Part shown: piece by piece, positions 31,451-33,867 of the stretch
Layout: each line of letters begins with the position of its first letter
Position numbering within the stretch: position 1 is the stretch's first letter
Assembly: GCA_947630975.1 (NCBI GenBank)
Contig: CANRJP010000019.1
Span: 1-34,006 of the forward strand
Length of the DNA: 34,006 nucleotides
From: an uncultured Clostridia bacterium
GTDB taxonomy: Bacteria; Bacillota; Clostridia; UMGS1883
Direction: 5' to 3'
Translations under genes and position numbers: made by a program
The notes under the pieces: model-generated
Told to the model about the DNA's origin: nothing
What the model saw: the letters and a program-made list of their open reading frames with translations, nothing else
Database searches by the model: none

Positions 31451-32275
31451 ATGGCCACCACCTTTGGGAAGGCCATCCGGGTTCTGTTCGTAAGCCTCGT
31501 GTACATAACCCTCTACTCTTTTATGCAGGTGGCCGTGGAATTAGCGGCGGGGCTGCTGGCCATATACCGGGATCCTCCGGGAAGGGACGGATTTATGTAC
31601 GGCTTCGAGGACGCGGTGCTGTCCAACCTCTTTCTCTGCTCCGCCGTCGCCATGGCCCTCTCTCTTGTCCTGTTCTGGGCCATGGGCATACTCCGTGAGC
31701 GGAAGCTTAAGGACGAGCTGAAATTCGACGGGCCGACCAAAGCCTCGGCGCTGCCGGCGGTGCTCATCGCCTTTGGCTGCCGTCTGGGGGTCAGCGTTTA
31801 CGCGGCATTCGCCGACAACGTGGACATACTGCGGGAGTCTGTGGAAAACAGCGTAGACACAAGCTCGTATATGGTTTCGCCGGGGAAGCTGATAATGTAC
31901 CTCGCCGCCACGGTCATTTTGGCGCCGGTGTTTGAGGAGATACTTTTCCGAGGAATAGTGCAGACCGAGCTGCTCAGAGGCTTTCCCGTTCCCATGGCGA
32001 TATTTGTCGGGGCGCTGTTCTTCTCGGCGGCACACGGTATGCTGTACCAGGCCATGTTCACATTCTTTGTGGGACTTGTGCTGGGCTGGAGCTATTACAT
32101 CACAAGGAACCTGTTCACAAGCATCATCATACACATGATTTTTAACGGCACCGCCATTGTCACCGGAGTGCTGAACCTGACGGGGCCGCTGTGTTTCATA
32201 GCGGCGGCCGGAGCGGCGGCGCTGGTGACAGCGGGCTGTCTGTGGATGTGGGAAAGGCGTCCCCAAAACAAATAA
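31451..32275 (+). CDS. CPBP (CAAX-like) intramembrane metalloprotease
   Basis: A 274-residue polytopic protein with about seven to eight hydrophobic helices. The three CPBP/Abi active-site motifs are intact: FEEILFRG (Glu162, Glu163, Arg167), FFSAAHG (His195) and HMIFN (His228, Asn232). Bacterial members act in protein processing, bacteriocin immunity or membrane signalling; the substrate here is unknown. AAGGTGATAAA precedes the ATG 16 nt after rnfB, so it is probably read with the rnf operon. A hairpin and T-run follow its stop and likely end the transcript. Confidence 0.88.
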   Translation: MATTFGKAIRVLFVSLVYITLYSFMQVAVELAAGLLAIYRDPPGRDGFMYGFEDAVLSNLFLCSAVAMALSLVLFWAMGILRERKLKDELKFDGPTKASALPAVLIAFGCRLGVSVYAAFADNVDILRESVENSVDTSSYMVSPGKLIMYLAATVILAPVFEEILFRGIVQTELLRGFPVPMAIFVGALFFSAAHGMLYQAMFTFFVGLVLGWSYYITRNLFTSIIIHMIFNGTAIVTGVLNLTGPLCFIAAAGAAALVTAGCLWMWERRPQNK

Positions 32276-32282
32276 AATATTA

Positions 32283-32311
32283 GTATAAACTCCCCTCCTT
32301 TTGCATAAATA
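32283..32311 (+). promoter_or_regulatory. Candidate sporulation (SigE/SigK-like) promoter of sipL
   Basis: GTATAAA, a 14-nt spacer and CATAAATA resemble mother-cell sigma-E/K promoters (-35 ATA core; -10 CATAnnnT-like). The last -10 position differs from consensus. Transcription would start near 32318, in the loop of the hairpin at 32294-32335. No sigma-A promoter is evident here. Confidence 0.4.
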
Positions 32312-32335
32312 TCTTATGAGATATGCAAAAGGAGG
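32294..32335 (+). promoter_or_regulatory. Terminator-like hairpin overlapping the sipL ribosome-binding site
   Basis: Perfect 14-nt arms, CCTCCTTTTGCATA (32294-32307) and TATGCAAAAGGAGG (32322-32335), with four further pairs possible in the loop (ATCT/AGAT, competing with the innermost base pairs). The 3' arm is the sipL Shine-Dalgarno GGAGG, and ATTTTTTT follows directly. A transcript entering from upstream would form either an intrinsic terminator or an RBS-blocking stem. Confidence 0.75.
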
Positions 32336-32343
32336 ATTTTTTT

Positions 32344-33867
32344 ATGGAACTGAATGTCACCTCGGCCGCCCTTGAGATAAGCGGCGAGATCTGCCGCAGC
32401 GAGAACAGCTTCGGCGCGGAGAGCGACCTCATAGTGCCGGACAATATGCCGGACATACTCAGTATTCTGCAAATTTCCGCCAACGCCGCCACATCGGCCT
32501 GCGACCCCCAGACCGACCGGGTGCTGCTGACGGGGAACGTGTTCTTCAACATTCTTTATGTGGCCGACACGCCAAAACGGGAGGTCAGAGCCATCAACAC
32601 CGGGGCGGTGTTCTCCAACATTTTTTCCGCGCCCGGAGTACGCGACTCCATGCCGGTACAGTCGGAAGTGACCGTAAGCTCTATCAGCTACGACCTTACC
32701 AACTGCCGAAAGCTGTCGGTTCACGGCGAGCTGACCGGCAAAATCGCCGTATACAGCAACACCGGCCTCTCCCTCCCCACCGCCATCGAAGGGGCGGAAA
32801 CCCAGACCGCCCAGATCCTCTGTCCTGTCATCAAGGCCCGCGGCTCCGCTCAGGAGACCGTCACCGACAGCTTCGAGCTTCCGCCGGAAAAACGGGCGGC
32901 TGAAATTCTCCGGGACGAGGTGAAGGTCACCGACCGGGCGGTGAAGATAATACGCAACAAGGCCATAGTCAAGGGCGCTCTCGGCGTGACCGTCCTCTAC
33001 TGCGGCGAGGCGGGGATACAGCAGTTCAAGGGCGAGATACCCTTCACCAAGGTTGTCAACGTGGACGGCCTTGAGGAGGACATGACGGTGGACTGCTCCA
33101 TCGACGTACAGGGCTGGGAGACCGCTCTCAGCGCCGGCGAAAACGGGGAGATAAAGGGCATCGATGTGGAGACCATGCTCTACTTCAACGTGCTGGGACG
33201 GCGGGATCAAAGCTGCTGCGCCATAACCGACGCCTACTATCCCGGCGGACAGCTCGTCTGTGAAAAGCAGACTCTTTCACTCAGCGCCTCCGCTGCGGAG
33301 GAAACCGAGGAGTGCGCCGTTAAGGGCTCCATACGACTGCCCGCTTCGGTGGGAGAGATAGAGCTGGTCTACGACATCAGCGGCAGCCCAAGGATAAACA
33401 GGGTCTACCGTGACGACGGGAACATAGTGGCGGAGGGTTCGGCGGCTGTCAGCGTTCTCTACCGCACCGCAAATCCGGAATTTCCCACCGCCAGCCACAG
33501 CGCCCAACTGGAGTTCCGCCACATATTCGGCGGCGAAAAGTACGACCGCGTCCCGGAGGTGACCGCTCGGCTCAGAAACATGAGCTGTTCCCTTTCCGGC
33601 GGCAACTCCATCGAGGTCAGGGGCATAGCCGTGCTCAGCGTCCGTACCGTGGGCAGCCGTGAAGTGACCCTCGTCACCTCCGTCCGTCTGGAGGAGGAGC
33701 CGCCAAAGGAGGTTCCCTCCATCCTCATCAGCTATATCACCGGGGAAAGATCCCTCTGGGAAATAGCCAAGAGCTACAATATCAGCCGGGAAAAGCTGAT
33801 GTCCGCCAACGACATTAAGAGCGAGGATGAACTCAGGAGCAAGCGTGCTCTTGTAATACCGAGATAA
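32344..33867 (+). CDS. sipL: SipL-type spore morphogenesis protein (SPOCS/DUF3794 plus LysM)
   Basis: A 507-residue protein matching SipL of Clostridioides difficile, which binds SpoIVA through its LysM domain and is needed for coat assembly around the forespore. The bulk contains repeated DUF3794/SPOCS-type segments with motifs such as ENSFGAESDLIVPDNMPDI, ILRDEVKVTDRAVKIIRNKAIVKG and VLYC. The C-terminus (about 455-507) is a LysM domain: YITGERSLWEIAKSYNISREKLMSANDI...LVIPR. The track ATG (32323) lies inside the hairpin; the ATG at 32344 is 8 nt from GGAGG and is chosen. The TAA at 33865-33867 ends it. Presence implies an endospore-former. Confidence 0.92.
   Translation: MELNVTSAALEISGEICRSENSFGAESDLIVPDNMPDILSILQISANAATSACDPQTDRVLLTGNVFFNILYVADTPKREVRAINTGAVFSNIFSAPGVRDSMPVQSEVTVSSISYDLTNCRKLSVHGELTGKIAVYSNTGLSLPTAIEGAETQTAQILCPVIKARGSAQETVTDSFELPPEKRAAEILRDEVKVTDRAVKIIRNKAIVKGALGVTVLYCGEAGIQQFKGEIPFTKVVNVDGLEEDMTVDCSIDVQGWETALSAGENGEIKGIDVETMLYFNVLGRRDQSCCAITDAYYPGGQLVCEKQTLSLSASAAEETEECAVKGSIRLPASVGEIELVYDISGSPRINRVYRDDGNIVAEGSAAVSVLYRTANPEFPTASHSAQLEFRHIFGGEKYDRVPEVTARLRNMSCSLSGGNSIEVRGIAVLSVRTVGSREVTLVTSVRLEEEPPKEVPSILISYITGERSLWEIAKSYNISREKLMSANDIKSEDELRSKRALVIPR

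Follow-up and report, generated by a model that had tools for sequence, protein, structure and literature searches.

A predicted Shine-Dalgarno-blocking hairpin with a probable nested sigma-E-type promoter in the sipL leader of an uncultured Clostridia bacterium

Introduction

Terminators and sigma factor specificity are the usual explanation for the silence of developmental genes that lie behind housekeeping operons. The sipL gene of an uncultured Clostridia bacterium, which follows a run of rnf genes in the same orientation, raises the question of whether its short leader could itself contribute to this silence. The DNA analysed here, termed the window, is a stretch of 34,006 nt (GCA_947630975.1, contig CANRJP010000019.1, positions 1 to 34,006, forward strand). 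Its host is apparently a gut organism. A first-pass annotation of the window, which assumed that the upstream operon was highly expressed, had proposed that a hairpin over the sipL ribosome-binding site (RBS) and a sporulation promoter nested within it keep the gene silent in vegetative cells.

Results

Domain searches agreed with the gene assignments of the first-pass annotation. RnfC, an Rnf-Nqr subunit, RnfB and an Rce1-like CPBP protease are encoded 5' of sipL, and the sipL product carries SPOCS and LysM domains. The leader is flanked by the following genes:

31451-32275, forward strand: CPBP/Rce1-like membrane protease gene, the last of the upstream rnf run, stop codon at 32273-32275 (Pfam PF02517, E=3e-20)
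32344-33867, forward strand: sipL coding sequence, SPOCS domain and C-terminal LysM (Pfam PF12673, E=9e-34; PF01476, E=2e-6)

The leader between the CPBP stop codon and the sipL ATG is 68 nt long, and each of the six congeners whose sipL leader could be read has the gene order rnfB-CPBP-sipL. The genome contains a single copy of the leader, which ruled out a repeat or mobile element, and a search for an Rfam family or riboswitch gave no match at the gathering score and none near threshold. A further in-frame ATG, at 32323-32325 within the 3' arm of the hairpin described below, would lengthen sipL by 7 codons; this codon is without a Shine-Dalgarno sequence (SD) of its own and is missing from the leader of one congener (G003).

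The leader was found to contain the following elements of a hairpin:

32294-32307, forward strand: 5' arm of an RBS-sequestering, terminator-like hairpin, CCTCCTTTTGCATA, located by inverted-repeat search; rewritten with complementary changes in G001 and lost in G002
32322-32335, forward strand: 3' arm, TATGCAAAAGGAGG, located by the same search
32329-32335, forward strand: sipL SD, AAGGAGG, within the 3' arm, read from the sequence; pairing predicted
32337-32343, forward strand: T7 run, both terminator-like tail and SD-to-ATG spacer, read from the sequence; T-rich in 6/6 congeners
32344-32346, forward strand: sipL ATG, read from the sequence

The arms form a perfect inverted repeat of 14 bp and are separated by 14 nt, bearing out the earlier description of a stem that uses the sipL SD as its 3' arm, and the seven-T run that was said to follow is indeed present, with one A between arm and T7 and the ATG directly thereafter. 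The leader folds with a predicted energy of -24.4 kcal/mol compared with a shuffle mean of -11.4 (z = -4.8; 0/200 shuffles as good). In 2,000 dinucleotide shuffles of the leader that left SD and T run in place, no stem exceeded 11 bp, a length reached in 2 cases, and stems at eight further SD-like sites of the window were only 0-6 bp long.

The hairpin has the anatomy of an intrinsic terminator, namely a GC-rich CCTCC/GGAGG stem base, an A and then T7, and was missed by a simple terminator scanner with a loop limit of 8 nt. It could thus be a mere intrinsic terminator of the rnf-CPBP transcript, with the overlap of SD and promoter reflecting compaction of the 68-nt gap and no translational role. 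The T7 run right behind the stem fits this reading, which is nevertheless considered unlikely, as the predicted block of the SD is near complete. The probability that the SD is unpaired was calculated, as a purely thermodynamic prediction, to be 0.001 in read-through RNA and 0.45-0.49 (about 0.46) in RNA starting at 32315-32318. The latter value is in line with the earlier claim that a transcript started within the hairpin would have a free RBS.

Overlapping the 5' arm are the elements of a candidate sporulation promoter:

32283-32290, forward strand: sigma-E-type -35 element, GTATAAAC, ATA at 32285-32287; ATA column invariant in six congeners
32303-32311, forward strand: -10 element, GCATAAATA, CATA at 32304-32307, overlapping the end of the 5' arm; GCATA invariant in six congeners
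32316-32319, forward strand: predicted sporulation transcript start, in the loop past the 5' arm, placed ~12 nt downstream of the C of CATA, with A at 32316 and G at 32318 as purines

The distance from ATA to CATA is 19 nt in all six sipL leaders (counted by eye for G003), and both columns are invariant in the alignment. This conservation supports the view that the nested promoter is real. The leaders of spoIIID, a classical sigma-E target, have the same 19 nt spacing in five of the six readable cases from the genus and 20 nt in the sixth, which is that of the window's own genome; in several species the spoIIID SD also pairs with the promoter region. In Clostridium difficile a sigma-E promoter has been mapped upstream of sipL, and the -35 elements of the two mother-cell sigma factors are ATA for sigma-E and AC for sigma-K; loss of sipL expression in a sigE mutant has been shown for C. 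difficile only (PMC3789822). The -35 ATA, the genus-typical spoIIID spacing and the C. difficile mapping together make sigma-E the better reading. The candidate at 32283-32311, first described as SigE/K-like, was therefore retained as a promoter with its sigma-K half dropped, and the transcript start first put at about 32318 was refined to a predicted 32316-32319.

The first-pass annotation had proposed that orthologous leaders be compared, and six were readable, from the window's own genome (G000) and from G001, G002, G003, G004 and G007. CATA and a T-rich tract were present in 6/6 and an SD-blocking stem in 5/6, so that the proposed reading was not refuted. The hairpin arm is identical in G000, G004, G003 and G007, and the loop ranges from 14 nt to >50 nt among congeners while pairing and promoter persist. 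In G001 the stem is rewritten (CCTTTCCG/CGGAAAGG), with five pairs altered on both sides and pairing retained: C-G to T-A twice, T-A to C-G twice and T-A to G-C once. The register of this G001 pair table was fixed by hand, MAFFT having misplaced the 3' arm. With only six congeners, the compensatory set counts as one evolutionary event; note also that the T run of G001 is interrupted, which makes the termination half weaker there.

These comparisons bear on whether the inverted repeat might act in the DNA, as an operator bound by a protein such as a sporulation regulator, and not as an RNA hairpin. A perfect palindrome overlapping a promoter is what such an operator would look like. However, a protein site would be expected to keep its sequence and its spacing, and here the G001 arm has a new sequence that still pairs, the distance between the arms differs widely from congener to congener, and G002 retains just half a palindrome. 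An operator is accordingly judged highly unlikely.

The G002 leader has lost the 5' arm and kept promoter and SD. Upstream of the promoter it contains a separate hairpin terminator (-22 kcal/mol, with T5), so that in this one case one insulator has been naturally replaced by another. This swap is the best single argument, from that one case, that insulation is the selected function. That G002 uses an ordinary terminator unable to touch the SD can equally be counted in favour of a terminator-only role. In G005, a genome of the same genus that is 97% complete, spoIVA and spoIIID are present and sipL was not matched; the gene may be lost, divergent or in an assembly gap.

The idea that an SD-pairing hairpin is limited to the window's genus proved wrong, as in five outgroup sipL leaders (L020-L024, from g5, another genus of the family) different stems can pair with the SD. 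In a further sipL leader (L026) the stem search found an SD-pairing stem, yet the SD was predicted to be open, and in the g4 sipL leaders, which lie behind a divergent gene, the SD was predicted to be half-open. The five g5 leaders also carry, ~60-140 nt upstream of sipL, a conserved promoter-like and terminator unit (TACCGAAAAGGTACTTAAACTTTTTTCATTTTCCCTCCTTTT...GTCTGTCATATTTTTTT, variant in L024), possibly a small RNA; two of them (L020, L021) were searched against Rfam and the unit gave no match.

A hairpin with a T run also covers the SD of mgtE in the window's genus (L039:912-1130, from the window's own genome, contig C32, and L033, L034 and L035). Ahead of it lies a short ORF that is conserved (MDGGSNGVGRRGMAVRETALT and relatives), and upstream of this ORF 3/4 leaders share a conserved GGGCTGTTCG...GAATGGTCCTTTT stretch. 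The arrangement looks like a leader-peptide attenuator, and the two leaders searched (L039, L034) had no Rfam match. Given that terminator-type hairpins over the SD serve attenuators, and that mgtE has one behind a leader ORF in this very genus, sipL might likewise be under ligand- or peptide-controlled attenuation of the riboswitch type. This is the least probable of the alternatives, because the stop-to-ATG gap of only 68 nt holds no aptamer and no leader ORF, gave no Rfam match near threshold, and has a loop whose sequence is not conserved.

A scan of GTDB contigs with the pattern CCTCCT-N4-CATA-N8..38-AGGAGG-N0..3-TTTT returned at least 118 stretches. About half of the matches listed (59) had a start codon directly past the SD, and the families among the matches listed were dpaA, pdaA and pdaB (all three below NCBIfam's curated cut-off), yabP, spoIVA, ylxY, yqfC, YlmC/YmxH, SipL, SpoVS and CotJA. 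Spore genes thus appeared strikingly often.

Controls were run in 399 Bacillota genomes. The pattern CCTCCTT-N0..8-CATA-N8..38-AAGGAGG was found at 100 distinct places in 80 genomes, while a scrambled arm matched in composition (CTCTTCC) gave 10 places in 10 genomes, and at 3 of these places there was an ORF start. Given CATA and SD, there is therefore a roughly tenfold excess of the complementary arm. Replacing CATA with ATAC gave matches in 60 genomes, and 40 places once those also matching with CATA were dropped. A gene start lay directly past the SD at 68/100 CATA places, with a co-directional ORF upstream in 59/68, and at 15/40 ATAC-only places, 10 of them co-directional; ORFs and orientations were assigned mechanically, and cases from close relatives are partly dependent on one another. 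The ATAC control is imperfect but conservative, since it also catches CATAC and holds more spore genes (spoVT, gerA, spoIID, cotF) with other sporulation-type promoters. How far the arm extended past the seed of the search did not tell gene matches from non-gene ones; this measure was uninformative because ordinary terminators match too, and pattern controls were used instead.

Only 28/68 gene-linked CATA cases have four or more consecutive T within the 10 nt that follow, which suggests that RBS blocking is the more general part; that many related spore-gene leaders have an SD hairpin without a T run also argues against a purely terminating role. Release of the SD on a nested start was predicted in 44/53 CATA cases, and the median predicted SD openness was 0.00 in read-through RNA and 0.54 in nested RNA, the former value being partly by design because the pattern searches select for pairing. 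A search without the promoter tetramer (CCTCCTTT-N12..42-AAAGGAGG) matched 180 genomes and gave 53 gene-linked cases, 45 of them co-directional.

After removal of near-duplicates 55 proteins were scanned, 50 from the CATA set and 5 from the ATAC set. Sporulation families comprised SafA-type (4), SleB (3), GerM/Germane (3), LonB (2), CwlD (2) and YabP (2), with single matches to YunB, GerA, SpoVT, SpoIIID, SipL, SpoIID, Coat F and DUF1256, the last taken to be YyaC. Because some of these matches are to cell-wall families of broad scope, their sporulation role is in part presumed. The 46 proteins scanned from the tetramer-free search included Germane (4), SipL (2), SpoIIQ (2) and YabP (1). Spore genes make up a few per cent of such genomes. 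Their share among the matches might reflect stronger SDs of spore genes; the excess of complementary over scrambled arms is free of this problem.

In three spoVT leaders (L319, L320, L322) and one gerA leader (L321), SD hairpins lie over sporulation-type promoters (GTATA ... AATACTA). Both genes are usually forespore-expressed, and the design may therefore extend past the mother cell. A protein family conserved in one genus (g251; L284-L290) carries the hairpin CCTCCTTCATATACTG...GAAGGAGG with species-specific changes. Inspection by eye of spoIVA leaders across Clostridia showed most to be without the design, which makes it sporadic per gene and lineage and not fixed to a gene.

Discussion

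With a probability of roughly three in four, the sipL leader is an insulator and a nested sigma-E promoter combined in one element. Polymerase entering from the rnf-CPBP genes would produce RNA with both arms, in which the hairpin would lock the sipL SD and, with the T7 run, probably end the transcript ahead of the ATG. In the mother cell, sigma-E polymerase would use the promoter whose -10 box lies in the 5'-arm DNA. Its transcript would start in the loop and, lacking the 5' arm, could not form the hairpin, leaving a usable ribosome-binding site. In this way sipL would be tied to sigma-E, and kept silent in vegetative cells, despite its co-directional neighbour. The insulator interpretation of the first-pass annotation gains sequence-level support from the stem (5/6), the promoter (6/6), the G001 compensation and the dedicated terminator of G002, and from the recurrence of the design ahead of sporulation genes in other genomes. 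Its claim that read-through RNA is terminated or at least untranslatable agrees in the second half with the predicted closure of the SD.

It seems slightly better than an even bet that SD hairpins with nested promoters are a general insulation device of the Bacillota sporulation programme, with sigma-E, sigma-K and forespore-sigma promoters repeatedly embedded behind co-directional neighbours, arising anew gene by gene and swappable with an ordinary terminator. A promoter within a silencing hairpin would tie expression to the position at which RNA starts, not to the amount of RNA. If the device is general, sequence alone predicts shielded spore genes together with their transcript starts, and operon and start-site annotation of spore genes would be affected.

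Several known systems can be compared with sipL. An intrinsic terminator or attenuator over the SD, as in mgtE of the same genus, shares the stem and T run on the SD, but is controlled by leader signals and does not need a nested alternative promoter. In the fold-back inhibition of Tn10/IS10, incoming transcripts hide the transposase RBS and an internal promoter starts inside the 5' arm; this is a mobile element, guarding against chance insertion beside promoters.

In phage T4 gene e, longer early RNAs form an inhibitory helix, the late promoters lie in the DNA that encodes its 5' strand, and the long RNA gives 100-fold less lysozyme synthesis (PMC3014915). The pattern recurs in I-TevI/segB-type leaders (PMC2988022). 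Going by the available parts of these two reports, logic and layout are the same as in sipL, with an SD helix in the longer early RNA and a promoter of the gene's own in the 5'-strand DNA. The phage systems differ in being viral, in exerting temporal and not cell-type control and in using a phage late promoter in place of sigma-E, and those parts describe no terminator-type T run like that of the sipL leader. Three features of the gene e type were found for sipL, namely an SD predicted to be paired in RNA started upstream, a conserved promoter candidate of its own over the 5' strand with a predicted start, and a co-directional upstream unit.

In Bacillus subtilis, spoIIG read-through RNA has been proposed to fold into a hairpin of 20+ bp that keeps sigG from being translated, and transcripts started at the sigG promoter cannot fold in this way (PMC5942855). 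Like sipL, sigG is a sporulation gene behind a co-directional operon (spoIIGA-sigE); unlike sipL, it is a forespore gene with a sigma-F/G promoter, and the operon in front of it also belongs to sporulation (PMC5942855). In the available part of that report, the hairpin concerns a single gene and is not presented as a general architecture.

The principle is thus known from T4 gene e, I-TevI and B. subtilis sigG. No description of recurrent nested-promoter SD hairpins in spore genes was found in the open-access literature; this recurrence appears to be undescribed, and is the part that specialists would want to test. The sipL leader itself is, on well-supported grounds, a further case of the known regulatory logic, to which a terminator-like T run and a predicted nested sigma-E start have been added.
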